Source of the DNA: Holdemania sp. Marseille-P2844
GTDB lineage: Bacteria; Bacillota_I; Bacilli_A; Erysipelotrichales; Erysipelotrichaceae
Length of the DNA stretch: 64,000 bases
Assembly (NCBI RefSeq): GCF_900120005.1
Contig: NZ_LT635452.1
Location: forward strand, 1 to 64,000
Reading direction: 5' to 3'
Shown here: positions 5,994 to 28,439 of the stretch, piece by piece
How the letters are laid out: the number at the start of each line of letters is the position of its first letter
How positions within the stretch are numbered: position 1 is the first letter of the stretch
Translations under genes and position numbers: made by a program
The notes under the pieces: generated by a model
Database searches by the model: none
The model's input: the letters and a program-made list of their open reading frames with translations, nothing else
Told to the model about the DNA's origin: nothing

Positions 5994-7193
5994 ATGGATT
6001 ATCCAAAACAAGCGCTGGGCTTTATGCTCAGACAAAACCGGCTTGACCAGAATCTGTCGCTGCGTTCCCTCGCTGAGCGGACAGGAATTTCGGCCATGTA
6101 TTTAAGCGATGTGGAAAACGGCGTGCAGCGGCCGGCAGAGTACACGCTGCGCAAGTTGTTCAGTGAATTGGCACTGCCCTATGATCCGGCATTGGTCTGG
6201 CTTCCGGATTTCAGTCTGGCGCCGCTTTATCAGGCGATTCTGGATTACCGAATGGACCGGCGCGACGTGGTCTTTGAAGATTTATGCAGGAAGCGCGAAA
6301 CTTTATCAGCCAGCTGTCATTATGCTCAGCTGCTGTTGGCGGAATGGATCGTCCGGATCAGCCGGGGTGAAAACCGGACTGGGGAAGTCTTTGCCTTGCG
6401 GGAGGTGCTGGAAAAGGCCGGTTCAGCTCTGACGCTTCAGGATCAACAATGGTATCGGCTTTACCGCGGCATTCATCATAAAGCCCTGGATGAGGTGGAA
6501 GCCGCGCAGTCGTGGTTGATCCGTGCTGAAGCTCTGGGGCAGGATGAAGGCGCGCAGGCGTTGATCCGCTACCATGAAGCCGACTGTCTGATGCGTCTGC
6601 AGCGGCCGCAAAGCGCGCTGTTGATGAATCAGCGGGCGCTGGATCAGTTTTCACGCAATGGCTATTTTGTCCGGGCAATCCATACCCGGATTCATCAGGC
6701 CGATCTGTTTTTAAATGATGAACCGGAAACTGCGCAGACGTTGGCGCTGCGGGTTCGTCAGGAAGCCGAGCGATTTCAATGCCCGGAAGTTCAGCTGATG
6801 GCTGAGGAACGCCTCGCCCTGGCAGCTTTGCTTCTGGATCAGCCGGAAGCAGCGCTGGCGCATGCCCAGGCTTGTGCGGCGGTGATTCATCGACCGCCGT
6901 TATTGATTGCCGGTGCGGTGGCCGCCTGGCTTTGTCATCAACAGGAAGCGTGTCTGTTCTTTTTAAGACGGATGAAGGAAGAAGTTGAGCGCAAGCATCA
7001 ATCAGACGCTACGCTGCGCTGGCTCACGGCGCTGATCAATGAGGACGCAAAGCAGCTCGTGGAGCTCAGCTTACAGCCTGATCCGCTGGCCGGAGTGCTG
7101 CAGAAAAAACTGGTGCAGCTGCGGTTTCAGGCATTGGTCAGATTGCAAGAGCACGATCTGGCCTGTCAGCTGATTCAGCAAGCGTGTCTGTAA
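5994..7193 (+). CDS. XRE-type regulator with TPR-like C-terminus
   Basis: A 399-residue protein with an N-terminal Cro/C1-type helix-turn-helix (about residues 8-62, with RSLAERTGISAMYLSDVENG as the two-helix core). A long alpha-helical C-terminus rich in Ala, Leu and Gln follows, with the spacing of tetratricopeptide repeats. The layout is that of Rgg/PlcR/RapR-like regulators, many of which bind short peptides, but no peptide gene is seen nearby. The ATG is preceded by GAAAGGTG. A second protein of nearly equal size and layout lies on the minus strand at 62196-63404. Targets are unknown; it stands alone after a terminator. Confidence 0.75.
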   Translation: MDYPKQALGFMLRQNRLDQNLSLRSLAERTGISAMYLSDVENGVQRPAEYTLRKLFSELALPYDPALVWLPDFSLAPLYQAILDYRMDRRDVVFEDLCRKRETLSASCHYAQLLLAEWIVRISRGENRTGEVFALREVLEKAGSALTLQDQQWYRLYRGIHHKALDEVEAAQSWLIRAEALGQDEGAQALIRYHEADCLMRLQRPQSALLMNQRALDQFSRNGYFVRAIHTRIHQADLFLNDEPETAQTLALRVRQEAERFQCPEVQLMAEERLALAALLLDQPEAALAHAQACAAVIHRPPLLIAGAVAAWLCHQQEACLFFLRRMKEEVERKHQSDATLRWLTALINEDAKQLVELSLQPDPLAGVLQKKLVQLRFQALVRLQEHDLACQLIQQACL

Positions 7194-7270
7194 GCTGACG
7201 CCGCCGGCTGGCTTTCCTTCCGGAACTTTGAAATAATGAACGCAGACGAATGGTCAGGGAGGGATACAGA

Positions 7271-8086
7271 ATGATTCGATGCGTCATGCTTGATCTGGAC
7301 GGGACGCTGCTGCGGAAGCAGGGCCAGAAAACCGCAGGGATCAGTGAGGAAAATGAGCTTGCTTTACAGCGCTGGCAGGATGCCGGCGGCTTGGCGGGGA
7401 TTGCGACCTCGCGTTCGGCCGGGTATATTCAAAATTACAGTTTACGAAGATGGGCCGCCGTCGTTGGCTGGAATGGAGCGGTAATCGAGGTGGGAAACAG
7501 CCGCCGGCTGCATCTTTTGCCAAAGCAGGATGAAAGTCAGCTGTGGAAAATTTCAGGGGGTGACCAACGGGAAAATCGGGTGGCCATGGTCACGCCGGAC
7601 AACGACTGGCTCGTTTACGATGAACAGTTGCCGCTGGTTCGCGAATATTGCGCAAATCCACGGGGCTGGATTCAGGATCATCGTCGAGTTCGTTTATGGG
7701 ATCCGCAGCGCCCTGATGCAAAGCTTGCCATGATTCTGGCGGTGTATCCTGATGCATTGGCGGCCCAGGCTGTGCGACTGCGGGTGTTGGCGGTGAACCG
7801 GGGGCTTAACGTCATTGAAACCAGTGCCCGCACCTTGATGATGGTCAGCGCGGGCGTGGATAAAGCCCGGGGAATTCTGGAGGCTTGCGGGGAATTGGGC
7901 TTACGGCGGGAAGAAGTGGCGGTGATCGGTGATGACCGCAACGATCTGCCGTGTTTCCAGACCTTTCCTTACAGCTTCTGTATGGCTGGGGCGGAACGTG
8001 AAATCCGCAAACAGGCCCGCTGGACCGTGGAATCGGCAGCGGAAGCGCTGTCGGTGATCCGGATGGAGAACCAGCATAGCCTCTGA
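7271..8086 (+). CDS. HAD-superfamily phosphatase (Cof-type)
   Basis: HAD hydrolase of the Cof/IIB group, 271 residues, dephosphorylating sugar phosphates or other small phosphates. Motif I is DLDGTL with the nucleophile Asp8 and acid/base Asp10; motif IV is GDDRNDLP near residue 220. The C2-type cap lies between. The start at 7271 is chosen because it has AGGGAGGG 7 bp upstream; the in-frame ATG at 7250 has no such site. The substrate cannot be inferred. Another Cof-type protein is encoded at 42079-42882, but the two differ in their caps. Confidence 0.85.
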   Translation: MIRCVMLDLDGTLLRKQGQKTAGISEENELALQRWQDAGGLAGIATSRSAGYIQNYSLRRWAAVVGWNGAVIEVGNSRRLHLLPKQDESQLWKISGGDQRENRVAMVTPDNDWLVYDEQLPLVREYCANPRGWIQDHRRVRLWDPQRPDAKLAMILAVYPDALAAQAVRLRVLAVNRGLNVIETSARTLMMVSAGVDKARGILEACGELGLRREEVAVIGDDRNDLPCFQTFPYSFCMAGAEREIRKQARWTVESAAEALSVIRMENQHSL

Positions 8087-17790: not shown

Positions 17791-18945
17791 ATGAATAGAA
17801 TTAAAATTCAGATGCTTGGCGGTTTTATCTTAAAAACAAACGACCAGACGATCGATCTTGTTGCGTTGCTGGGCAAGCAGACAGCGGCGTTTCTCGCCTG
17901 CCTTTGCCTCAATCACGGAACTCTGGTAACCAAAGAACGACTGATCGAATTGTTTTGGGAAGACTCCAAAAATCCCCTCAATGCCATGAAATTTACAGTC
18001 CACAGGCTGCGGAAATGTCTGGAGGAGCTAACGGTGACGGGAGCGGCCGATTGGATTGTGACGCAGCGGGGCGGTTACAGCTTTGCCTGTTCCGAGCTGA
18101 CGCTGGATATTGATGAGCTGAATAAACCGCTGGATCCTTTGACGATTGACTCCGATTATGCGCAAGCGCTGGCAGAATTATATCCGGGCGAGTTTCTGCC
18201 CGGCTTGGACCAGAGCTGGATCTATACCTATCGTGAGCAATACTGGCAGCTGTATCTGCAGCGGGTCCAGGCCGCAGCCCAGTCGCTGGCCGACCTTCAC
18301 CATGAAGCTCAGGCGGAAACCCTGCTGCTGAAAGCCCTCCAGCAGGATTTATATCAGGATCAACTCAATTACCTCTATCTGAAAATTCTTCTTGATCAAA
18401 AGAAATATGCCCGCGCCATTCAACATTATGAAAAGATTTCCGATTCTTTCTACAAGGAATTCGGAATGGAGTTTCAGGGGAAGAGTCAGTCGCTGGTTTA
18501 CTTCATTAAAGCGGATAACGAGGATAAGGAACTGACGCCGCTGGATTATCTGTCGGAACTGGAAGGAACCAGCGAGCCTGCGGCGTTCTATTGCGAGCGG
18601 CCGGTTTTTGCCAAGCTGGTCCAAAACAAACGTCTGGAAGCCCGGCGCAGCACGGCGCCGATCGTGCTGGTAATTACGCATCTGAAAGTCACGGACGCTG
18701 AATTGTCCGCGCAGGACTGCGGCGATCTGCTCAACCGCATCATCCGCTCCGGTTTGCGGGCTAATGACGTTTATACCCGCTTCAGCAAGACGCAGTTCGG
18801 AATTCTGATGACTGTAAAAGAAAAGAGCGATATTGCATTGGTGATGGATCGGCTGACCCGGCGGTTTTATAAAAAAATCGCGTCTTCCCGCTGCCGTCTC
18901 CATTATGACTTTGAGCTATTGAACGAGAAAACACCCGCAAATTGA
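17791..18945 (+). CDS. SARP/AfsR-type transcriptional activator
   Basis: A 384-residue regulator with an N-terminal OmpR-like winged helix (about residues 3-100; LVTKERLIELFWEDSKNPLN then MKFTVHRLRKCLEEL as the recognition part). A bacterial transcriptional activator (BTAD)-type helical domain follows (about 105-245, containing YAQALAELYPGEFLPGLDQS). The last 130 residues are less clear and may be a sensory or diguanylate-cyclase-like remnant. No receiver domain is present, so activity is probably set by ligand or protein contact. An A/T-rich promoter with TATAAT precedes it and AGGCAGACG lies before the ATG. Its targets are unknown; the exported-protein and pilus-like genes downstream are candidates by position only. 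Confidence 0.75.
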   Translation: MNRIKIQMLGGFILKTNDQTIDLVALLGKQTAAFLACLCLNHGTLVTKERLIELFWEDSKNPLNAMKFTVHRLRKCLEELTVTGAADWIVTQRGGYSFACSELTLDIDELNKPLDPLTIDSDYAQALAELYPGEFLPGLDQSWIYTYREQYWQLYLQRVQAAAQSLADLHHEAQAETLLLKALQQDLYQDQLNYLYLKILLDQKKYARAIQHYEKISDSFYKEFGMEFQGKSQSLVYFIKADNEDKELTPLDYLSELEGTSEPAAFYCERPVFAKLVQNKRLEARRSTAPIVLVITHLKVTDAELSAQDCGDLLNRIIRSGLRANDVYTRFSKTQFGILMTVKEKSDIALVMDRLTRRFYKKIASSRCRLHYDFELLNEKTPAN

Positions 18946-19038: not shown

Positions 19039-19527
19039 GTGATGATGCACAGATTGTTGACTATGATGAGTTTTGCCGGATTCGAAAGCAGTTGCCTGGC
19101 GCTGCCATCAAACGGTTCAGGCATGCGCGGAATCCTTTTTACGTCTGTTTCTCATTCCAATCCGACATGGAACATCGGCTGGGGATGGCTGTTAGGCTGG
19201 GGCATTCTAGCCGTCGGACTGGCCGCGGTCCTGCGGGTGATGGTGAAGAAAGATAAGGTTGTGCTGAAATTGGGAAGCGTGGAAGAAAACCAGGACGGCA
19301 CGATGACGGTTGTCTGCACCGGCTATCAAAACAAGAAGCCGCTGCCGCTGGACTTATCCCATGTCCGTATTCACAAAGGCTCCGCCTTGATATTCCGGCA
19401 GTCGCTGACCAGCGATCTTGACGATGTTCAGCTGACGATCGTCCTGGATCCTCTGGCGGAATTAACCGTCGAAGTGGGCGAAGCCCGGCTTACCGTCAGT
19501 CAGAACCGACTGCGTGCAAATCGTTAG
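19039..19527 (+). CDS. Membrane-anchored protein, unknown function
   Basis: A 162-residue protein with one clear membrane segment (about 55-75, GWLLGWGILAVGLAAVLRV) followed by a basic stop-transfer and a beta-rich soluble domain of about 85 residues. No family was recognised. The GTG at 19039 with AAAGGG upstream is the likely start, though the ATGs directly after it are also possible. A terminator follows, so it is probably transcribed alone or with the SARP gene 93 bp upstream. Confidence 0.6.
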   Translation: MMMHRLLTMMSFAGFESSCLALPSNGSGMRGILFTSVSHSNPTWNIGWGWLLGWGILAVGLAAVLRVMVKKDKVVLKLGSVEENQDGTMTVVCTGYQNKKPLPLDLSHVRIHKGSALIFRQSLTSDLDDVQLTIVLDPLAELTVEVGEARLTVSQNRLRANR

Positions 19528-19607: not shown

Positions 19608-19635
19608 TTGGGAAGGGGTTGGATTGTGCTATAAT
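19608..19635 (+). promoter_or_regulatory. Promoter of the transglutaminase/pilus-like operon
   Basis: TTGGGA (19608-19613), 16-bp spacer and TATAAT (19630-19635) with an upstream TGC extension. The ATG at 19634 overlaps the -10 box and cannot be the start; transcription should begin near 19642. Confidence 0.7.
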
Positions 19636-19663: not shown

Positions 19664-20566
19664 TTGAAAATACGCAGATGGCTCGTTTTGGCGTTACTGC
19701 TGTCGGCCTGCAGCTCCTCCGGCAAGCCTTCTTCAACGCAGGAATACCCGACGCCGATCGAGGAAACCCCCGCTCCCACCCTCGCGGGAATTCATCTTCC
19801 GGAAGCTTCCGGAAACGTGATTTTGGGCGACGATTTGATCCAGATTGACGCCAGTCACACCGATCAGGGCTACATTATGGTGAAAACCCTGCGTTTTGAT
19901 CATCGCCGCTTAAAGTTAAAAATCATCAAAGACGGTGAGGAATATCCCTATGATATTGATCAGGATGGAAATTACATCACCTACCCTCTGACCCTGGGCA
20001 GCGGACAATACGAAATCCGGGGGTATGAGAATATCGAAGGCTCAAGATATGCCGTCTTGTTCAAGCAGACGTTCGACGTCAGACTGAGTGAGGAGACCCT
20101 GCCGTTTCTTTATCCCAACCAGATTGTAAACTACTCGCCGCAGTCGGCGAGCGTTCTGAAATCGTTCGATTTGACGCAGGATTGCCGGACTGAGCTGGAA
20201 CGGGTGCTGACAATTTACAACTTTGTGGTCAAGCATGTCAGCTACGATTGGGACAAGGCCGAGGAAGTCAAAGATCAGTATGTCCTGCCGGTTGTCGACG
20301 ACACGCTGTCCCAGGGCAAAGGCATCTGTTTCGACTACGCCGCCCTGATGAGCACGATGCTGCGTGTCCAGCAGATTCCGACCCGCCTGATCACCGGCTA
20401 TGTCGACGAGGGTTACCATGCCTGGGTCGAGGTGTATGTCCGCGGGGCCGGCTGGATCAATCCGGAAATCTATTTTGAAAAAGAAACCTGGACGCGAATG
20501 GATCCGACCTACGCGTCAACGCAGATGAAATACACTGGACAGTATCAGGATAAATATCGCTATTAA
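19664..20566 (+). CDS. Transglutaminase-like lipoprotein
   Basis: Secreted lipoprotein of 300 residues with a transglutaminase-like/cysteine protease fold. The TTG at 19664 is chosen because AAGGAGG lies about 11 bp upstream and the promoter excludes earlier starts. The signal peptide ends at LLLSAC with Cys16. A beta-rich N-terminal domain precedes the catalytic core, whose triad is visible: Cys222 in GKGICFDYA, His252 in YHAWVEV and Asp280 in MDPTY. Such proteins cleave or crosslink peptide or isopeptide bonds, or act as non-catalytic binders. The pilus-like operon begins 13 bp after its stop, so the two are probably cotranscribed; a role in processing surface proteins is inference. Confidence 0.82.
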   Translation: MKIRRWLVLALLLSACSSSGKPSSTQEYPTPIEETPAPTLAGIHLPEASGNVILGDDLIQIDASHTDQGYIMVKTLRFDHRRLKLKIIKDGEEYPYDIDQDGNYITYPLTLGSGQYEIRGYENIEGSRYAVLFKQTFDVRLSEETLPFLYPNQIVNYSPQSASVLKSFDLTQDCRTELERVLTIYNFVVKHVSYDWDKAEEVKDQYVLPVVDDTLSQGKGICFDYAALMSTMLRVQQIPTRLITGYVDEGYHAWVEVYVRGAGWINPEIYFEKETWTRMDPTYASTQMKYTGQYQDKYRY

Positions 20567-20579
20567 AGGGGGAAAAAAC

Positions 20580-21614
20580 ATGAAAAAAATCTCCGGGAAT
20601 GAATGCGCGCTGTTGTGCCAGCAGCTGGCGATGATGATCAGCTCGGGCTTATCGGCAGAAGACGGATTAGGTGTGGTGGCGAACGATCAGCCAGACGTCG
20701 GTCTGCATGACGCGCTGTTAAAAATCAAAAATGAAATAGAGCTGGGCGAAACGTTGGCGGACAGTCTAAAACGGACGGAAGCGTTTGACTCCTACATGGT
20801 CCGGATGGTGCGGATCGGGGAACAGACCGGCTATCTGGATCAGGTGCTGGAAGCGCTGGCGCAGTATTATCAGCGCATGGAAAAGATCCGGATTAATTTG
20901 AAGAACGCGCTGACTTACCCGCTGATCCTTCTGATCATGGTGATGGTCGTCGTTGGCGTGATCTTATTTAAGGTGCTGCCGGTCTTTGATGAAGTGCTGC
21001 GCAATCTCGGTATTTCGCTGCCGGTATCGGCACAGGTGCTGATGCGGGCAGGGTCAGGCTTAATCATCGCGGCAGCGGTGATTTCCGGGCTGGCCTTGAT
21101 CGGTGCGGCGGTGATTGCCATACGCCATTTTCGCAATCCGCAGCTGTCGTTGACGGCGCTGTTTGCCCGTGTTCCGCTGATCAGCGGTGTGTGCCGCGAG
21201 CTGTCGCTGGCGCAGGCGGCGTTCGCGTTGTCCTTGTTTACCCGCAGCGGTGTAGAGATCAGCGAAGCGCTGCAGGGATTGGAAACGCTGATCGAGCATC
21301 CGGGAGTGCAAAAACAGATTCGCGCCTGTATGCAGAAAATGGACGAGGGCGAAAACTTCGACCGGGCCTTGCTGGATTGTGGATTGTTTAAAGAAGCTTA
21401 TGCCCGGATGATCGGCATCGGCCTGCGGGCTGGGCGGGGCGATGAGATGATCGCGCAGGTAGCCGAGCGCTATGACGACGATACCGAAACCGCCGTAAAC
21501 CAGTTCTTAAATACGATCGAACCGCTGATGATCGTGCTGCTTTCGGTGATCGTCGGGGCGATTCTGCTTTCCGTGATGCTGCCGCTGATGAACATCATGT
21601 CCAGCATTGGGTAA
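20580..21614 (+). CDS. PilC/GspF-like inner-membrane platform protein
   Basis: Type II secretion/type IV pilus platform protein of the GspF/PilC/ComGB family, 344 residues, with the two repeated T2SF halves. Membrane segments lie near residues 115-140, 157-180 and 312-340 (PLMIVLLSVIVGAILLSVML), and MVRIGEQTGYLDQVLEALAQ is a typical first-half segment. It would hold the pseudopilus base and contact the ATPase encoded five genes downstream. GGGGG precedes the ATG. The protein is slightly shorter than PilC of Gram-negatives, as usual in Bacillota. Confidence 0.88.
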   Translation: MKKISGNECALLCQQLAMMISSGLSAEDGLGVVANDQPDVGLHDALLKIKNEIELGETLADSLKRTEAFDSYMVRMVRIGEQTGYLDQVLEALAQYYQRMEKIRINLKNALTYPLILLIMVMVVVGVILFKVLPVFDEVLRNLGISLPVSAQVLMRAGSGLIIAAAVISGLALIGAAVIAIRHFRNPQLSLTALFARVPLISGVCRELSLAQAAFALSLFTRSGVEISEALQGLETLIEHPGVQKQIRACMQKMDEGENFDRALLDCGLFKEAYARMIGIGLRAGRGDEMIAQVAERYDDDTETAVNQFLNTIEPLMIVLLSVIVGAILLSVMLPLMNIMSSIG

Positions 21615-21618
21615 CCCG

Positions 21619-21927
21619 ATGAAGAAGCTGGGAAAAATCACAGCCATTATTCTGATCTTCGCGGCGCTTTTCTGGGGGATCGTTCGTTCTCTGAACCAGA
21701 CCTCGGGACAGATCCGGAATGAAGAAGCGCAGCTGATCGAGCAGCGGATCGAACAGGCGGCGGTGCTGTGCTATGCGTTGGAGGGAAGTTATCCTGAGGA
21801 CGTGAGTTATCTGGAACAAAACTATGGAGTCGTCATCGACCATGGGAAATACAATGTGTTTTATCAATCGCTCGGCTCCAATATGAAGCCGGACGTCGCG
21901 GTTTACCGGAAGGGGGCGGCGCGATGA
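21619..21927 (+). CDS. Small pilin-like membrane protein
   Basis: A 102-residue protein with one N-terminal membrane helix (about 6-24) and a short soluble domain. The layout and the YALEGSYPEDVSYLEQNYG segment resemble minor pseudopilins, in which a helix is followed by a Tyr-Pro loop. No canonical Gly|Phe prepilin cleavage motif is present. The ATG at 21619 lies 4 bp after the upstream stop. It overlaps the next gene by 4 bp (ATGA). Confidence 0.7.
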   Translation: MKKLGKITAIILIFAALFWGIVRSLNQTSGQIRNEEAQLIEQRIEQAAVLCYALEGSYPEDVSYLEQNYGVVIDHGKYNVFYQSLGSNMKPDVAVYRKGAAR

Positions 21928-22388
21928 AGCGGTCTGTGACGGAAATGGTCTTTATGCTTCTGTTATTGACGTTGTTTGTCGGCTGTTCGTTTGTGACGAT
22001 CGAGCGGTGCGCTTCCTTTTATCAGCGGATGCTGCGGGAACAGCGGCAGGATGACCAGGTGCAGCTGCCCTATCTGGTGTTGTTCAATCGGCTGCAGGGC
22101 GTCCGCGGCGATCAGGTGCGCGTGCAGCGGATCGGAGATCAGGAGTGTCTCATGATCCGGGAAGAAATTGACGGACGGACGTATGAAACGGTGTTCTATG
22201 TTCAGGAGGGTCAGCTGATGGAACTGCTGATGGGCGCCAACAGGCCGCTGGATTTGAGCGCCGGGGAGAAATTGGCGGCTTCGGCGCCGATTCGCTTTGA
22301 GCTGCAGGGATCGTCGCTGCAGGTGCAATGGCAGGGCGAATCGGGAATCGCCACGCTGAGCCTTGAGCTGAAGGAGGATGCGGAATGA
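21924..22388 (+). CDS. DUF4860-like pilus-operon membrane protein
   Basis: A 154-residue protein with an N-terminal membrane helix (about 8-28; TEMVFMLLLLTLFVGC) preceded by a Glu, as in pilins, but lacking the usual Gly cleavage site. The soluble part (GDQECLMIREEIDGRTYETV) matches what is annotated as DUF4860 in Bacillota pilus-like loci. That assignment is from memory of the family and is moderately certain. Four-bp overlaps at both ends show tight translational coupling. Confidence 0.7.
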   Translation: MKRSVTEMVFMLLLLTLFVGCSFVTIERCASFYQRMLREQRQDDQVQLPYLVLFNRLQGVRGDQVRVQRIGDQECLMIREEIDGRTYETVFYVQEGQLMELLMGANRPLDLSAGEKLAASAPIRFELQGSSLQVQWQGESGIATLSLELKEDAE

Positions 22389-22801
22389 AAATACGACAGC
22401 GTTCCAGCTCGTTTTATTTCCTCAGCGAGCTGTTGTTTGTGATTCTCTGCTTTGCCCTGGGTTCTGTGCTGTGCGTACGCTTGTTCGCGCTGGCCAGCGC
22501 CAGGCATCATTTAGCGCTGGATCAGAATCAGGCGCTGCGGTTGGCCCAGCCGCTGGCCGAACAGCTGCGGACTCATTCCGATGTATCACTGACCACGCTG
22601 TGGCCGCAGCAATGTGAACCCGAGGCCTGTCTGTGGCAGAGCGACGAGAGTGGAAAACTGCAGGAAAACGGCGTTTATCAGATTGAAATTGAACGATCGG
22701 TCCACAATGAAGAAAAAGCCGCCGTCCTGCGTGTCGTGCGGGTGAAGGATGGCCGGATTCTGGTGGAAATCGGTCCGATCACAGGAGGCGGGAAGTCATG
22801 A
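22385..22801 (+). CDS. Pilin-like membrane protein, unknown
   Basis: A 138-residue protein with a membrane helix at about 13-33 (LSELLFVILCFALGSVLCVR), Glu at its start, and a helical continuation (about 38-60) like the long N-terminal helix of pseudopilins. A beta-rich C-terminal domain follows. No known family recognised. It overlaps both neighbours by 4 bp. Confidence 0.65.
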   Translation: MKIRQRSSSFYFLSELLFVILCFALGSVLCVRLFALASARHHLALDQNQALRLAQPLAEQLRTHSDVSLTTLWPQQCEPEACLWQSDESGKLQENGVYQIEIERSVHNEEKAAVLRVVRVKDGRILVEIGPITGGGKS

Positions 22802-23004
22802 GTCATCGTCAGGAAACCCAAACCGCGGTGCATATCGGCACGGGGATCGCACCGTTATTGATGTTATTCTGCCTGTTGTGCATGACAACCTTCGCGGTAT
22901 TGTCCTATGTTCAGGCTAACGCGCAGCTGCAGCTGAGCGATAAAGCGATCAGCCGGGTGCAGGCGCATTACAGTGAAACGAAAATGGAAAAGGAGGAACG
23001 CTGA
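22798..23004 (+). CDS. Short single-pass membrane protein of pilus operon
   Basis: A 68-residue protein with one membrane helix (about 18-40) and a short charged C-terminal tail. The size and position recall small minor pseudopilins or assembly factors, but no motif supports a specific role. Its ATG overlaps the upstream stop by 4 bp and its stop overlaps the ATPase start by 1 bp (TGATG), so it is part of the same coupled unit. Confidence 0.65.
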   Translation: MSHRQETQTAVHIGTGIAPLLMLFCLLCMTTFAVLSYVQANAQLQLSDKAISRVQAHYSETKMEKEER

Positions 23005-24077
23005 TGGACTGTCCAACGATATTGCGGCAGGCGGTCGACCGCCGGGCTTCGGATATTTTTATTGTCGCCGGGACACCGCTGACGATAAAAATTAACGGTG
23101 AAATGATTCAGCTGGATGATCAGCGGCTGACGCCGGCGATGACCGAAGCGTTGATTCAGGAAATTTTTAAATTGAGCCAGAATCGGACGATGGACCGGCT
23201 GCATCAGACGGGCGAGGATGATTTTTCCTTTTCGCTTTCCCAGATGGGGCGCTTCCGCGTCAATGTTTATCGTCAGCGCGGATCGTTAGCGGCGGTGCTG
23301 CGGGTCGTGCGGTTCGTTTTGCCGGATGCGAATGAGCTGCATATCGGACCGGAAATCCTGGCGTTTTCCGAATTGAAAAAGGGGCTGGTGCTGATTACCG
23401 GGGCGGCCGGCAGCGGCAAATCCACGACGCTGGCCTGTCTGATCGACGCAATCAACCATAGCCGAAGCGGGCATATCATCACGATTGAGGATCCGATTGA
23501 AGTGCTCCACCGGCATCAGAAAAGCATTGTCAGCCAGCGTGAAATTGGTCAGGATACGCCCGATTATATCCACGCTCTGACCGCGGCGCTGCGGGAAGCG
23601 CCGGATGTGATTCTGGTCGGGGAAATGCGCGAACTGGAAACGATGCAGACGGTGTTGTCAGCGGCGGAAACAGGGCATCTGGTCTTTTCCTCGCTGCACA
23701 CAACCGGCGCGGCGAATACGATCAACCGGATTATTGACGTGTTCCCGGCCGAGAAGCAGCAACAGATCCGCGTGCAGCTGTCGATGGTGCTGCAGGCGAT
23801 CGTGTCCCAGCAGCTGATTCCGGCGGTTGGGGGCGGCTTGATACCGGCCTTTGAGATCATGAAGGTCAACAATGCCGTCCAGACGCAGATTCGCGAGAAT
23901 AAGATCCATCAGATCGACAACACGATTCAGGCTAACGCCCGGGAGGGCATGATCACGATGGACGCCAGTCTGTTGAATTTGTTGAAGGCCGGCCGGATCA
24001 CAAAGGAGACCGCGTTATTGGCCTGTACGGATCCGGATTTAATGCGCAAACGCCTGACGGCGGCCAATATGGGGTAA
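23004..24077 (+). CDS. PilT-type secretion/pilus ATPase
   Basis: Hexameric ATPase of the GspE/PilT superfamily, 357 residues. Walker A is GAAGSGKS (Lys139), the Walker B region is VILVGEMRE near residue 206, and the HTTGAANTINRIIDVFP segment with QIRVQLSMVLQAIVSQQLIP follows PilT rather than PilB. The AIRNLIRE-like C-terminal block is present as QTQIRENKIHQI. PilT enzymes power pilus retraction; in loci with only one ATPase it may do both steps or drive secretion. It is the last gene of the operon; a hairpin terminator follows. Confidence 0.88.
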   Translation: MDCPTILRQAVDRRASDIFIVAGTPLTIKINGEMIQLDDQRLTPAMTEALIQEIFKLSQNRTMDRLHQTGEDDFSFSLSQMGRFRVNVYRQRGSLAAVLRVVRFVLPDANELHIGPEILAFSELKKGLVLITGAAGSGKSTTLACLIDAINHSRSGHIITIEDPIEVLHRHQKSIVSQREIGQDTPDYIHALTAALREAPDVILVGEMRELETMQTVLSAAETGHLVFSSLHTTGAANTINRIIDVFPAEKQQQIRVQLSMVLQAIVSQQLIPAVGGGLIPAFEIMKVNNAVQTQIRENKIHQIDNTIQANAREGMITMDASLLNLLKAGRITKETALLACTDPDLMRKRLTAANMG

Positions 24078-24202: not shown

Positions 24203-24353
24203 ATCCCGTGACGCTAGCTTCATTTCCAGCTTTAAACAGCACGATGGGTTTTCAGTATCCTTGATGATTTCATCTTCTTTCATTTCTTTCAGCAAGTTAT
24301 TTCAGAATTCTGGTATTTTTGCCGCTTAATCAATTTAAAAAAACGTTCGATTC

Positions 24354-24362
24354 TGCTACAAT
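24354..24362 (+). promoter_or_regulatory. Extended -10 promoter of the ATP-grasp cluster
   Basis: TGCTACAAT at 24354-24362; no clear -35 box. The ATG follows at 24391. Confidence 0.55.
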
Positions 24363-24390
24363 GAAACTTGAACAAAGGTGGGGAATATCC

Positions 24391-25581
24391 ATGAATTTTA
24401 TTTTTATATCGCCGAACTTTCCCAAGACGTATTGGAACTTTTGCCGTTGTCTGAAACAGAACGGCGTCCGTGTGCTGGGAATCGGGGATGCTCCATACGA
24501 GCAGCTTGAAGACAACCTCAAGCAGAACTTACAGGAATACTACAAAGTTTCAAGTCTGGAAAACTATGAAGAGGTGTACAAAGCCTGCGCTTTTTTTGCG
24601 TTCCGCTATGGCAAGATCGACTGGATCGAATCCAACAACGAATACTGGTTGATGCAGGACGCCCGGCTGCGCACGGATTTCAACGTAACCAGCGGCGTGC
24701 GCAACGAGGCGATTTCCTTCATTAAATACAAGAGCCAGATGAAGGCGCTGTATGAAAAGGCCGGAGTCCGCACGGCACGCTGGCATCTGGTGTCCGAGCG
24801 GGAAGCCGGACTGGCATTTGTCGCGCAGACGGGTTATCCGGTTGTCGTCAAACCGGATAACGGCGTGGGCGCCAACGCGACCTACAAGCTGGAAAACCAA
24901 GCGCAGCTGCATGAATTCTACGATCATCTGCCGGAAACGCAGTACATCATGGAAGAATACGTGCCGGGCTCGATTGAATCCTATGACGGCATCGCCAACC
25001 GCGAGCGCGAGCCGATCTTTGAGACGTCGCATGTGTTTCCGCGGCCGATCATGGAAATCGTCAATCATGAGGAGGACATCTATTATTATTCCGTGCGCCA
25101 AATCCCGGAAGATCTCAAGGATGCCGGACGGCGCGTGATCGCCGCCTTCCCGACCCAGAGCCGGTTTTTTCATTGCGAGTTTTTCCGCCTGACTGAAGAT
25201 AAGGAAGGACTGGGCAAGCGGGGCGATCTGATCGGCCTGGAAGTCAACATGCGTCCGCCGGGAGGCTATACCCCGGATATGATGAACTATGCCAACGATA
25301 TCGACGTCTATAAAATCTGGGCGAACATGGTCGCGTATGATCATGGGTATTTCGATCCTTCGCACCGGCCGTATTATTGCGTTTATACGGGCCGCCGTCA
25401 CCGTCTGGCTTACCGTCATACTCTCGCTGAGGTGCATGAGCGCTACGGCAGCGCGATCGTGATGGCGGAAACGATGCCGGAGGTCTTAGCCCCGGCGATG
25501 GGCAACGACATGATCACCGCTCGTTTCGCGGATGTTGACGACATGATGGAATTCGTCAGCTTTACCATGACCAAGGAGTAG
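24391..25581 (+). CDS. ATP-grasp ligase, paralog 1
   Basis: ATP-grasp enzyme of 396 residues, of the kind annotated as carboxylate-amine ligase. It should activate a carboxylate as acyl phosphate and join it to an amine or similar nucleophile. The nucleotide-binding lysines lie in YPVVVKPDNGVGAN and QYIMEEYVPGS; the metal-binding Glu/Asn are in GLEVNMRPPGGYTPDM. The N-terminal pre-ATP-grasp domain begins MNFIFISPNFP. The ATG at 24391 has AGGTGGGG upstream. It shares long identical segments with the protein at 27258 (for example KIDWIESNNEYWL), so they are recent paralogs within one cluster. The substrates are unknown. Confidence 0.82.
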   Translation: MNFIFISPNFPKTYWNFCRCLKQNGVRVLGIGDAPYEQLEDNLKQNLQEYYKVSSLENYEEVYKACAFFAFRYGKIDWIESNNEYWLMQDARLRTDFNVTSGVRNEAISFIKYKSQMKALYEKAGVRTARWHLVSEREAGLAFVAQTGYPVVVKPDNGVGANATYKLENQAQLHEFYDHLPETQYIMEEYVPGSIESYDGIANREREPIFETSHVFPRPIMEIVNHEEDIYYYSVRQIPEDLKDAGRRVIAAFPTQSRFFHCEFFRLTEDKEGLGKRGDLIGLEVNMRPPGGYTPDMMNYANDIDVYKIWANMVAYDHGYFDPSHRPYYCVYTGRRHRLAYRHTLAEVHERYGSAIVMAETMPEVLAPAMGNDMITARFADVDDMMEFVSFTMTKE

Positions 25582-25586
25582 AAAAC

Positions 25587-26342
25587 ATGCATACAGCGTA
25601 TTATAACGAATACAGTTATCATCTTGACCGGATGATGGAATTCAAGGTTTACGGTCATGCCGGACGGCCCTGTCTGGTATTTCCGGCGCAGAGCGGCCGG
25701 TTCTATGATTTTGAAAATTTCGGGATGGTCGGGGCCGTGCAGGATCTGCTTGAACAGGGCCGGCTGCAGCTGTTTACCTGCGACAGCATCGACTGGGAGA
25801 CCTGGGCGGCCTTCGACCGCGAATGCCGCGGCCGGATCGAGCGCCACGAGGCTTATGCCCGCTATATTGTGGAAGAGCTGGCGCCGCGGATCCTCGAGAT
25901 TAACCAGTGGTCCAACGACGGCCGGCGGGCCGGCGGGATTCTGACGACCGGCTGCAGTCTGGGGGCGCTTCACGCTGTGAATTTCATGTTCCGCTGGCCG
26001 GATCTGTTCAACGGCACGATCGGCTTAAGCGGCATTTATTCCAGTAAGTGGTACTTCGGCGGCTACATGGACGATCTGGTTTACAACAACTCCACGATCG
26101 ACTATCTCGATCAGATGCCGGCTGATCATCCGTATGTGGAAAAATACCGGCATTGCGACATCGTGCTGTGCTGCGGTCAGGGCGATTGGGAACAGGAAGC
26201 TCAGCAGGACACCCGCCGGATGCAGGAACTGTTAGGCTATAAAAATATCCCGGCCTGGATCGATTACTGGGGCGGCGACGCGGTTCACGACTGGCCGTGG
26301 TGGCGCAAACAGTTCCCGTATTTTATCAGCCGTCTTTGTTAA
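25587..26342 (+). CDS. Esterase-fold alpha/beta hydrolase 1
   Basis: A 251-residue protein of the putative esterase (esterase D/enterochelin esterase-like) group. The nucleophile elbow is GCSLGALH, with the Ser near residue 133; the catalytic His is probably in DAVHDWPWW near the C-terminus. No signal peptide, so it acts in the cytoplasm. The 5-bp gap to the ATP-grasp gene indicates cotranscription. A hydrolase beside a ligase suggests that it splits, transfers or edits the product made by the ligase; this is inference. Confidence 0.8.
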   Translation: MHTAYYNEYSYHLDRMMEFKVYGHAGRPCLVFPAQSGRFYDFENFGMVGAVQDLLEQGRLQLFTCDSIDWETWAAFDRECRGRIERHEAYARYIVEELAPRILEINQWSNDGRRAGGILTTGCSLGALHAVNFMFRWPDLFNGTIGLSGIYSSKWYFGGYMDDLVYNNSTIDYLDQMPADHPYVEKYRHCDIVLCCGQGDWEQEAQQDTRRMQELLGYKNIPAWIDYWGGDAVHDWPWWRKQFPYFISRLC

Positions 26343-26358
26343 ATACTTCAGAATCTGA

Positions 26359-26382
26359 CCGCCGGGCTGTGTCCGGCGGTTT
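26359..26382 (+). terminator. Hairpin inside the ATP-grasp cluster
   Basis: CCGCCGG (26359-26365) pairs with CCGGCGG (26373-26379), followed by TTTCTGATTCTTT. It probably gives partial termination after the first two genes. Confidence 0.6.
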
Positions 26383-26408
26383 CTGATTCTTTCCCTCGGT
26401 TTTCAGAC

Positions 26409-26437
26409 TTGCGCTCGGACTGAAAATTCACTACAAT
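26409..26437 (+). promoter_or_regulatory. Second promoter of the ATP-grasp cluster
   Basis: TTGCGC (26409-26414), 17-bp spacer, TACAAT (26432-26437). Confidence 0.6.
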
Positions 26438-26484
26438 GAAAATGTCAGGCTGGGAATTCCCGGCTAGAAAAGAGGATCACAGAG

Positions 26485-27261
26485 ATGCTTATTCAACAGG
26501 AAACATGGATTACGCCGCTGGACGAAGCGCGGACGCTCCATCTGTATATTCCCGACGGACTGACGCCGGGCCAAAAGGTACCGGTGCTGTATATGTTTGA
26601 CGGTCACAATCTGTTTGTCGACGAGGAAGCGACCTATGGCAAAAGCTGGGGATTGAAGGATTACCTCGAGCTAACCCGGCTGCCATTAGTCGTCGTCGGT
26701 CTTGAATGCAACCATGAAGGCAATCGCCGGCTGTGGGAGTTTTCACCTTACGATTTCGCCGATCCCGTCTGGGGCGAGGTACAGGGACAGGGCGAGCTGC
26801 TGCTGGACTGGATGAGCGGCGAGTTAAAAGAATGGGTAGACGAGAACCTGCCGGTGCTGACCGATCGGGAGCATACGTTTATCGGCGGCAGCTCGATGGG
26901 TGGTCTGATGGCCTTGTACGCCGGCGGCCGCTACAGCTCGGTTTACAGCCGGGCTGCCTGCCTGTCGCCGTATCTGGGATTGGTCATGGAGCCATTGTGC
27001 GAGGATCTTGACGAAGCCTGGATTGAGGAAGACACGCAGTTTTATATCAGCTGGGGCGGCCTGGAAACCGGCACCCAGGAAGAACTGGCGCAGGTCACGA
27101 CCGACAACCTGACGATCCAGCGGATTTTAGAGGATAAAGCGTCGGTATATCTGCATTGCTACCCGGAAGGGACGCATTGCGAGGCGTGCTGGGAAGAAGA
27201 AACACCGGTCTGGATGGAAGAATTAGGCATCCTGCAGCGGTGTTGGGAGGAAACAGAATGA
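26485..27261 (+). CDS. Esterase-fold alpha/beta hydrolase 2
   Basis: A 258-residue putative esterase with the nucleophile motif GGSSMGGLMALYAGG (Ser near residue 137) and an N-terminal beta-rich lead (LHLYIPDG...VLYMFDGHNLF) typical of enterochelin-esterase/tributyrin-esterase relatives. The C-terminal GTHCEACWEEE segment may supply the catalytic His. It is not a close copy of hydrolase 1. The stop overlaps the ATG of the second ATP-grasp gene (ATGA), so the two are translationally coupled. Substrate unknown. Confidence 0.8.
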   Translation: MLIQQETWITPLDEARTLHLYIPDGLTPGQKVPVLYMFDGHNLFVDEEATYGKSWGLKDYLELTRLPLVVVGLECNHEGNRRLWEFSPYDFADPVWGEVQGQGELLLDWMSGELKEWVDENLPVLTDREHTFIGGSSMGGLMALYAGGRYSSVYSRAACLSPYLGLVMEPLCEDLDEAWIEEDTQFYISWGGLETGTQEELAQVTTDNLTIQRILEDKASVYLHCYPEGTHCEACWEEETPVWMEELGILQRCWEETE

Positions 27262-28439
27262 TAAATTTCGTATTGATCTCACCGCATTTCCCATCCAATT
27301 ACTGGCTGTTTGCACGGGCTTTGAAAAATCGCGGCGTGCGCGTGCTGGGGATTGTCGACACCCCGGTGGAATCCTTGCCGGAAACACTGCGGGCAGTGCT
27401 GGACGATGTGGTCTGCGTCTATTCGATGACCGATCGGGACGCGATGATCCGGACCTGCGGTTATTTCACATGGAAGTACGGCAAGATCGACTGGATCGAA
27501 TCGAATAACGAATACTGGCTGAATCTGGACGCCGAGCTGCGCGAGCTGTTTCACGTCACGACCGGCATGTTTCCCAAGCAGCTTCACGTCTGTCAGCACA
27601 AGTCGCTGATGAAGGCAAAATATGCCGAAGCGGGTGTGCCGGCTGCGCGCTGGCTGATCAGTGAGGATAAAGCCGAGATCCGCGAGTTTGCCAAAAAGGT
27701 GAACTATTCCTTAGTCGCCAAGCCGGACCGCGGCGTCGGGGCGAGCGACACGATGCGGATCCACAACGCGGAGGAGCTCGAGCAGATGTTAAAAACGATG
27801 CACTCCGGAATGATCGTCGAGGAATTTGTCCACGGCACGGTCTGCACGTTCGATGGGATTATCAACAACCAGGGCAAGGTCGTCTTTGCGACCAGTCATG
27901 TCTACCTCGGTTCAGTCATGGATTCGGTCAACGAGAAGCAGCCGATCGGCTGTTATTCGCTGAAAACGGTGCCGGACGATCTGCGCAGCGCAGGCGAGCG
28001 GACATTGCAGGCCTTCGGCGTGCGCGACCGGTTTTTCCACCTGGAATTCTTCCGTCTGGACTGCGATCAGGAGGGGCTGGGACGGCAGGGCGACATCATC
28101 GGCCTGGAAGTCAATATGCGCCCGCCGGGAGGATTTCTGCCGGACATGATCGACTATGCCAACGATATCGACATCTATCAGATCTGGGCCGATACCCTGA
28201 TCGATCACGAGCCTTGCTACAACCCGGAACGCCCGTATTCCAGCGTGTTTGTCGGACGGCGTAAGGAACAAGCGTATCAGCATTCGATGGAATGGATCAT
28301 CGAACGGTATCAAGGCGCGATCATCCAGCGGATCGCGATGGATCCAGCGCTGGCGGAAGCGATGGGCGACGAAGTTCTGATCGCCCGGTTCCCGACTGAG
28401 CAGCAGGTGTTTGATTTCTATGCTGACTGCGTCCGCTAA
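27258..28439 (+). CDS. ATP-grasp ligase, paralog 2
   Basis: A 393-residue ATP-grasp protein, paralogous to the one at 24391: same N-terminal strand (MINFVLISPHFP), same KIDWIESNNEYWL segment, ATP-binding SLVAKPDRGVGASDTM, metal-site segment GLEVNMRPPGGFLPDM and the following YANDIDIYQIWA. The ATG at 27258 overlaps the hydrolase stop by 4 bp; the longer frame to 27156 is only the shadow of that gene. Two such ligases each coupled to a hydrolase suggest two steps of one pathway, or two substrates; which amide or ester is made is unknown. Confidence 0.82.
   Translation: MINFVLISPHFPSNYWLFARALKNRGVRVLGIVDTPVESLPETLRAVLDDVVCVYSMTDRDAMIRTCGYFTWKYGKIDWIESNNEYWLNLDAELRELFHVTTGMFPKQLHVCQHKSLMKAKYAEAGVPAARWLISEDKAEIREFAKKVNYSLVAKPDRGVGASDTMRIHNAEELEQMLKTMHSGMIVEEFVHGTVCTFDGIINNQGKVVFATSHVYLGSVMDSVNEKQPIGCYSLKTVPDDLRSAGERTLQAFGVRDRFFHLEFFRLDCDQEGLGRQGDIIGLEVNMRPPGGFLPDMIDYANDIDIYQIWADTLIDHEPCYNPERPYSSVFVGRRKEQAYQHSMEWIIERYQGAIIQRIAMDPALAEAMGDEVLIARFPTEQQVFDFYADCVR

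Follow-up and report, generated by a model that had tools for sequence, protein, structure and literature searches.

Type IV filament machines are described, in PMC10191384 and PMC6668835, as assemblies of peptidase-cut pilins, an extension ATPase and a platform protein. The monoderm competence (ComG) pilus resembles the locus reported here, which encodes a transglutaminase-like lipoprotein (TGM), a PilC/GspF platform (PilCx), four single-helix proteins (S1, S2, S3 and S4) and a PilT-type ATPase (PilTx), in this order: each is a small operon that combines a GspF-type platform with a single ATPase and several small subunits of pilin type, and S3 and S4 resemble ComGE and ComGG, respectively. 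In contrast to the ComG pilus, the operon has neither a ComGA-type ATPase nor a cleavable ComGC-type major pilin but a PilT instead, it adds a lipoprotein enzyme, and no peptidase was found in three carrier genomes. Likewise, the GspI-J-K (XcpVWX) tip of the T2SS pseudopilus is mirrored by the GspJ fold of S2, the GspI-like S3 and the GspK-like S4, which is devoid of Glu5, although S1-S4 display no cleavage signal and the motor is of the PilT and not of the GspE type. The Firmicutes type IVa pilus, such as that encoded by contig C14 of the Holdemania genome, shares with the operon PilC and PilT homologues and the type IV pilin fold of S1, whereas the operon is devoid of PilB, peptidase and GFTLIE-type pilins and PilTx belongs to a separate clade. 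In C. bolteae and others, the tad-like 'no prepilin' loci carry tadA, tadC and tadV according to PMC3244431, and for this reason were ruled out as equivalents of the operon.

In the literature searched, which in part comprised the ten best-ranked of 438 and of 792 papers and included few subscription papers and no supplementary files, we found no description of this operon, no function assigned to it and no paper on DUF4860, the family of S2, and the operon seems to represent a type of cell-envelope motor not described so far. Within the window (the whole stretch of 64,000 nucleotides of Holdemania sp. that was analysed), it occupies positions 19664-24077 and consists of seven open frames, none of which has internal stops (Table 1). 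Gaps of 13 bp and 4 bp separate the lipoprotein from the PilC gene and the PilC from the S1 gene, respectively, with the start of S1 set at the ATG at 21619, while the S1/S2, S2/S3 and S3/S4 junctions are ATGA overlaps of 4 bp each and S4 and PilT overlap by 1 bp. The frames and their family matches confirm the set of components proposed in a preliminary description, and its observation that neither PilB nor a prepilin peptidase is encoded at the operon also holds, as PilB, A24 peptidase and the N-methylation motif are all absent from the window operon.

Table 1. Features of the operon and its upstream region, in window coordinates.
Feature	Position	Strand	Basis
Winged-helix/BTAD (SARP-like) regulator	17791..18945	+	PF00486 7.6e-08; PF03704 2.2e-04
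Sigma-70-like promoter match, 5' of lipoprotein gene	19608..19635	+	TTGGGA-16-TATAAT, TG before second hexamer
TGM lipoprotein, TTG start, lipobox Cys16, Cys222-His252-Asp280 triad	19664..20566	+	PF01841 1.2e-23
PilCx, PilC/GspF platform, 344 aa	20580..21614	+	PF00482 9.2e-48
S1, type IV pilin fold (predicted), without cleavage motif	21619..21927	+	AlphaFold, VIA-align
S2, DUF4860, GspJ-type minor pseudopilin fold (predicted)	21924..22388	+	PF16152, AlphaFold, VIA-align
S3, GspI/ComGE/PilV-like, invariant Glu15 (pilin Glu5 position)	22385..22801	+	Alignment, NCBIfam ComGE
S4, GspK/ComGG-like, invariant Gly16, no Glu5, 68 aa in window	22798..23004	+	Alignment, ComGG_2, PilX_N
PilTx, PilT-type ATPase	23004..24077	+	TIGR01420, motifs, tree

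The arrangement is highly conserved. With the lipoprotein as the sole query, 592 GTDB relatives were retrieved; of the 80 best, 72 loci hold all seven genes complete and in the same order, and the remaining eight are either cut by contig ends (seven) or devoid of the ATPase (one). The order PilC-S1-S2-S3-S4-PilT is kept in all 20 DUF4860 loci, the window counted, 18 of which also have the lipoprotein upstream (L054 and L055 do not), and on the basis of these two counts we conclude that the cluster is not a product of chance. Exceptions were found in one locus where no PilTx adjoins S4 (L142) and in a genome with two PilBs (G028), where PilTx stands alone without the surrounding operon. Hosts of the operon include Erysipelotrichales, Lachnospiraceae and Oscillospiraceae, and gut genera among them are, by their database names, Holdemania, Dorea, Enterocloster, Holdemanella and Blautia.

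PilCx scores 161.8 bits against the T2SSF family PF00482 (cut-off 25.2), as expected for a GspF/PilC platform, and lacks the first ~57 residues of GspF, the TIGR02120 match beginning at profile position 58. PilTx reaches 415.7 bits against TIGR01420 (PilT/PilU, cut-off 319.1), and the family consensus of 73 aligned sequences, across which the catalytic motifs are conserved, displays Walker A, Walker B, the Asp box, the His box and an AIRNMIRE-type motif; in the tree PilTx forms a clade of its own (84 of 84, support 0.855) inside PilT and beside the PilT of type IV pili. The curated cut-off and the catalytic motifs thus assign PilTx to PilT/PilU at the level of sequence, and a putative role in powering retraction is suggested by this family membership. 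The lipoprotein scores 83.9 bits against PF01841 (Transglut_core, cut-off 23) and its residues Cys16, Cys222, His252 and Asp280 are invariant in 18 of 18 aligned sequences, so that by core domain and Cys-His-Asp triad it belongs to the transglutaminase-like superfamily, whose members may also be proteases or inactive. It matches the transglutaminase-like enzymes of known structure 3isr and 6g49 in sequence across the core domain, but differs from them in constituting its own family, in an added N-terminal region and in its fixed linkage to PilC-PilT genes. The surface transglutaminase put forward earlier corresponds, as a transglutaminase-like lipoprotein, to a nearly constant part of the operon.

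The relation of the small proteins to pilins, previously left open, is supported by computation for all four, which resemble a pilin (S1), GspJ (S2), GspI (S3) and GspK (S4). S1 and S2 show a pilin fold in their predicted structures, while S3 and S4 are placed by weaker sequence matches. The AlphaFold model of S1 has a pLDDT of 92.3, and the ten best rows in VIA-align are type IV pilins with Z falling from 8.4 to 4.0, although below the top few the margin over unrelated rows, the first of which stands at 3.7, is thin. For S2 (pLDDT 90.7) the ten best rows are structure entries containing GspJ/XcpW/EpsJ or the pilin-like TTHA1219, at Z 8.1-9.1, and the following row drops to 5.5. Both fold assignments derive from this second look by VIA-align, as Foldseek returned no match at E<=0.001 for either protein. 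In the window S2 scores 48.3 bits against PF16152 (DUF4860, gathering cut-off 25), and all 66 family members match DUF4860 at E<=0.1 (best 7e-34). ComGE of NCBIfam is matched by seven of 66 S3 members (best 8.6e-07), ComGG_2 by 20 of 66 S4 members (best 2.1e-04) and PilX_N by one of the 66 (8.4e-04), while the Pfam and NCBIfam families listed for members of S1 include no convincing pilin. A sequence search of the PDB gave nothing meaningful for S1, S2 and S4; for S3, six of the eight best rows are named pilins, only at E 0.18-1.5.

None of the four proteins has a recognisable prepilin-peptidase motif. A search of the whole Holdemania genome for N_methyl at E<=10 gave ten places, none of them on the window operon, and neither N_methyl nor TIGR02532, the prepilin motif of NCBIfam, is among the families listed (up to 25 per scan) for the 66-member alignments of S1-S4, whereas in the same genome TIGR02532 is listed for five of eight ORFs from the loci for comG and the type IV pilus, four of them over the cut-off. 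A class III signal peptide, with Gly/Ala at -1 and Glu at +5, was likewise not found: Glu15 of S3 is present in 65 of 65 aligned members (one of the 66 has a gap there), yet Gly at -1 occurs in only 15 of the 65 and is not conserved, while S4 has Gly16 in 66 of 66 and no Glu5. The absence of the usual cleavage motif noted in the preliminary description is thus borne out.

On this basis we lean, with some reserve, towards the operon being a self-contained relative of type IV filaments that dispenses with both prepilin peptidase and PilB-type extension ATPase, probably a PilT-powered machine of unprocessed pilin-like subunits. The earlier proposal of a reduced machine driven by PilT alone, with a putative role in secretion or adhesion, is upheld in part, as PilTx is the only dedicated motor and no other such system was found in three of 30 further carriers; the set of PilB, peptidase and pilins that was named there as a refutation is, however, present in Holdemania itself, where other contigs encode PilB, another PilT, an A24 peptidase and prepilins as well as comG. 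In the three carriers mentioned (G449, G450 and G453), all of them MAGs and possibly incomplete, PilTx is the only PF00437 ATPase and PilCx the only T2SSF gene found, with no A24 peptidase at E<=0.01 and no N_methyl prepilin over the family cut-off; because the comG genes share one locus, these negatives count as roughly two independent observations, one for comG and one for the peptidase. In the isolate Anaerotignum neopropionicum DSM 3847 (G432), PilTx is accompanied by two ATPases read as Tad-type, with neither ComGA nor PilB detected and no N_methyl match. Both the N_methyl and the A24 searches can miss members, since a Pseudobutyrivibrio genome (G446) with a ComGA-like ATPase and a peptidase gave no N_methyl match over the cut-off, and no A24 match was obtained in a one-contig genome (G009) that has both PilB and ComGA.

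The operon might instead be an accessory module of an ordinary type IV or competence pilus, retracted by PilTx, with PilCx as an alternative platform and S1-S4 as tip or adaptor subunits supplied in trans, which we consider unlikely. A type IV pilus locus and comG both occur in Holdemania, but the pilus locus (contig C14) has its own PilT, and the operon brings its own platform and pilin set. Full-length PilB is present in 10 of 20 carriers vs 3 of 33 non-carriers among the relatives (33 of 40 searched; Fisher p 0.002, uncorrected for kinship), while nine of the 20 gave no PilB match and one (G018) has a contig-edge fragment of unclear type. An orphan PilTx in the two-PilB genome and the finding, read from scores and frame lengths, of PilTx as the only PilT beside PilB in five of the 30 further carriers (G433, G438, G440, G441 and G445) also favor such a module, against which stand the three carriers showing no other such system and the one that seems to have Tad only. 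As the ComGA-like ATPase is nearly ubiquitous (19 of 20 carriers, 30 of 33 non-carriers), co-occurrence with comG is uninformative on partnership and was dropped as a test of it.

Less probable still is a true, if unusual, retractile pseudopilus, in which a shared or unrecognised peptidase would process some of the subunits (S3 and S4), and PilTx would power extension as well as retraction in the manner of the single ATPases of Tad systems. The Tad ATPase CpaF reportedly performs both movements. PilT promotes extension of MSHA pili, according to PMC9815625. Eighteen of the 20 carriers of the first set have an A24 peptidase, and 27 of the 30 further carriers have one together with another PF00437 ATPase, so that sharing is possible. 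The Glu5 position of S3, its occasional Gly at -1 and the Gly before the helix of S4 point in the same direction, but no such signal is seen in S1 or S2, and in the three lineages without a detected peptidase S3 carries Pro (L136, L147) or Gln (L149) at -1 while the Gly of S4 is kept, so that this Gly does not necessarily mark a point of cleavage. A functionless cluster, whether decaying or brought together by chance, for which only the short S4 of four Holdemania genomes (68-69 aa) could speak, was rejected as highly improbable, since several orders share the conserved gene order and have the catalytic residues intact.

Returning to the self-contained machine, we hypothesize that S1-S4 would remain a fixed, membrane-anchored assembly similar to the priming or tip complex of a pseudopilus, on which a PilTx hexamer might act through PilCx, producing a short stroke, in or out, with no filament growth. 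Outside, the lipoprotein may be the effector, cross-linking, cleaving or capturing a molecule which the stroke would pull in or push out through the wall. More tentatively, and with rather less confidence than in the self-contained reading as such, the operon may represent a branch of its own within the type IV filament superfamily, common among gut Bacillota, whose pilin-type subunits would stay uncleaved and constitute a permanent complex in the membrane. PilT alone would move this complex without building a filament, and the surface enzyme of transglutaminase-like type would be coupled to it. If true, this PilT-only branch would break the textbook rule that prepilin peptidase and extension ATPase are indispensable in the superfamily. 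A conserved machine devoid of both would reveal how far the engine can be pared down, and would allow the direction in which PilT works and its mechanical role to be tested in isolation. DUF4860 gains a fold and a genomic setting.

The regulator gene upstream of the operon belongs to the same picture. A homologue lies within the fetched flank of 34 of 99 operon loci vs one of 66 other loci, and this single exception (L096) is itself an operon locus. The predicted promoter between the regulator and the lipoprotein gene, from a consensus scan only, has 10 of 12 consensus matches, in a region with six sites vs a shuffle mean of 3.3.

The seven reading frames of the operon, which encode a transglutaminase-like lipoprotein (TGM), a PilC/GspF platform (PilCx), four small single-helix proteins (S1 to S4, S2 being DUF4860, PF16152) and a PilT-type ATPase (PilTx), are free of internal stops, and the last five genes overlap at their junctions by 4, 4, 4 and 1 bp. 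Open frames, family matches and junctions thus bear out the gene content and overlap-joined layout of the preliminary description; a promoter consensus match just 5' of the operon is weak evidence when taken alone. DUF4860 was found in 20 of the 60 genomes searched, the window's own counted, and the 19 other loci all have the platform gene, the small ORFs (four in each) and PilTx in identical order, some of the small ORFs being assigned by position because of their low similarity. TGM precedes the platform in 17 of these 19 loci (18 of 20 with the window), being missing upstream in L054 and L055, and its Cys-His-Asp triad is invariant in 18/18. A query of GTDB genomes with TGM alone yielded at least 592 encoded relatives; among the best 80 loci, several from genomes of the first set (e.g. 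L107/L052, L108/L048, L122/L047, L143/L042), all seven genes are complete and collinear in 72, seven are interrupted by contig ends, and in one (L142) a LysR-type gene, recognized by eye, takes the expected place of PilTx after S4. Hosts of these 80 loci include Holdemania, Faecalicoccus, Holdemanella, Dielma, Dorea, Enterocloster, Extibacter, Intestinibacillus, Anaerotignum and Acetobacterium. The nearest named locus is that of H. filiformis DSM 12042 (lipoprotein identity 92%). In a class-wide sample TGM matched at E<=1e-30 in 12 of 395 genomes (partially in G292), so the family is patchy within that class.

Coordinates of the operon and of features discussed with it
Feature	Source	Position	Strand
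Winged-helix/BTAD regulator	window	17791-18945	
Small ORF between regulator and lipoprotein genes	window	19039-19527	
Operon, in the order TGM, PilCx, S1, S2, S3, S4, PilTx	window	19664-24077	+
Two ATP-grasp-like genes around two esterase-like genes, directly 3' of operon	window	24319-28439	
LysR-type gene after S4	L142	7468-8457	
Second, weak TGM-like ORF near operon, on the opposite strand	L173	10695-11813	-
Orphan PilTx-clade gene without operon	L199 (G028)	6206-7273	-

The small proteins are pilin relatives. The preliminary description had proposed predicting their structures, and S1 and S2, once folded (pLDDT 92.3 and 90.7), gave pilin-type matches in VIA-align, none of which ranked significant in Foldseek. 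The ten best rows for S1 are all type IV pilins, from PilA4 of Thermus (Z 8.4, rmsd 2.9, 97 aligned) down to Z 4.0, the first unrelated row standing at 3.7; those for S2 are entries containing GspJ, XcpW or EpsJ, or the type IV-like pilin TTHA1219 (Z 8.1-9.1), followed by a helix-only match at Z 5.5. The profile list of S3 is led by NCBIfam ComGE (7/66 members, best 8.6e-07), PilV, XpsI and GspI, and a Glu aligns with pilin Glu5 in all 65 aligned members, the 66th being gapped there. S4 matched ComGG_2 in 20 of 66 members (best 2.1e-04) and PilX_N in one; it is 68-69 aa long in all four Holdemania genomes, and carries a Gly before the helix in 66/66 without a Glu at +5. A review describes the minor-pilin tip complex as capped by a subunit lacking Glu5 (PMC10191384), a role that S4 fits. 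The prepilin motif TIGR02532 was absent among the best 25 families listed for each of S1 to S4, and residue -1 of S3 is Gly in just 15 of 65 members, in agreement with the cleavage motif having been described as lacking. Among eight control ORFs taken from this genome's comG and type IV pilus loci, some of them not certain genes, TIGR02532 was listed for five and passed the cut-off for four.

PilTx passes the PilT/PilU model in profile scans, and 73 sequences conserve its Walker A, Asp box, Walker B Glu and His box. The motif AIRNLIRE is a hallmark of PilT, and the family consensus AIRNMIRE (AVQTQIRE in the window) corresponds to it. In a tree of 119 ATPases, PilTx forms a single clade (84/84, support 0.855) beside that of type IV pilus PilT (11/11, 0.856), both together at 0.99; the remaining sequences are ATPases of PilB and ComGA type encoded in genomes of relatives. 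The genome with the orphan PilTx gene (G028) has two PilB. A Dorea genome without PilB (G442, locus L172) has two PilT-size ATPases, with scores of 152.8 and 150.8, and possibly two operon copies.

The absence of PilB and peptidase noted in the preliminary description holds for the operon but not for the genome, as contig C14 of Holdemania encodes PilB, PilT, prepilins and an A24 peptidase, and contig C12 has comG. A further secretion-type ATPase, read as Tad/VirB11-like, lies on contig C10 (L010). In the first set of 20 carriers, with classes assigned from score and frame length, full-length PilB is present in ten and partial PilB in one (G046); eight have, besides PilTx, only a ComGA-like ATPase, sometimes accompanied by a Tad-like one; G018 has a contig-edge ATPase fragment. 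The search for A24 peptidase was positive in 18 of the 20. One of the two negatives, the one-contig genome G009 (locus L050), encodes PilB, ComGA-like, PilT and PilTx yet gave no A24 match at E<=0.01, so the peptidase search can miss. In 30 further carriers picked from the 80 GTDB loci, PilB occurs in 14, a ComGA-like ATPase without PilB in 12 (split in G439), and only two apparent Tad-type ATPases besides PilTx in Anaerotignum neopropionicum DSM 3847. The other three (G449, L147; G450, L149; G453, L136) have no secretion ATPase except PilTx, and these alone among the 30 gave no A24 match; they are MAGs, and incompleteness is a caveat on these absences, which count as about two independent ones, the comG genes lying in one locus. 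Both absences falling in the same three genomes is the prediction of a stand-alone machine, and there the idea of a reduced machine with PilT as its only motor is supported. T2SSF and N_methyl searches covered eight of the 30 carriers: in these three the single T2SSF gene is the operon's own, and no N_methyl prepilin exceeded the cut-off (one weak match, E 0.48, in G453). Likewise, none did so in A. neopropionicum and G446; the latter has a ComGA-like ATPase and peptidase, so this search is not fully sensitive. At position -1 of S3, G453 and G449 have Pro and G450 has Gln, while the Gly of S4 is retained in all three, so that this Gly probably does more than mark a cleavage site.

Against complete independence, full-length PilB is commoner in carriers (10/20) than in relatives without a DUF4860 match (3/33, with 33 of 40 non-carriers searched; p 0.002, kinship ignored), the orphan-PilTx genome being one of those three, and PilTx is the only PilT beside a PilB in 5 of 30 carriers. 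In some hosts, therefore, PilTx may work for ordinary pili as well; this is not required in Holdemania, whose pilus locus encodes a separate PilT.

As set out in a 2019 superfamily survey, the generic model comprises an ATPase, a platform and a major pilin, and does not require the peptidase, as it may be shared (PMC6668835); in a 2011 survey of Gram-positive bacteria, every pil operon included is reported to have motif-bearing pilins (PMC3244431). With no extension ATPase, peptidase or class III signal, the operon falls by defining tests outside type IV pili, Com pili and T2SS; it may still work like part of such a system, and it has a fair chance of meriting a separate class. In known systems, according to the review cited above (PMC10191384), assembly requires prior cleavage of the prepilin signal, and the mature N-terminus pairs with the neighbour's Glu5. 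Without cleavage S1 to S4 most likely stay anchored in the membrane, as a complex akin to the pseudopilus priming complex. We infer that PilTx, via PilCx, would rock or pull this complex rather than depolymerise a fibre, and that the lipoprotein at its outer end would act on a molecule either captured or exported.

Among families flanking the GTDB loci, the winged-helix/BTAD regulator is the commonest (22 of 79 loci with usable flanks). In both sets it accompanies 34 of 99 loci, with at least three genomes counted twice, versus 1 of 66 other fetched loci, mostly short (268 kb vs 1346 kb in all), that one being itself an operon locus. It lies downstream on the same strand in 12 of the 34 (seven within 30 bp), upstream on the same strand in 11, upstream on the opposite strand in 10 and downstream on the opposite strand in one. 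The small ORF beside it had no family match in Pfam/NCBIfam-type profile scans of the window; H. filiformis has a corresponding ORF (L107 U1). In the cluster 3' of the operon the first ATP-grasp-like gene was called from weak NCBIfam matches, the second and both esterase-like genes by eye, and its first three genes also lie 3' of the operon in H. filiformis (L107).
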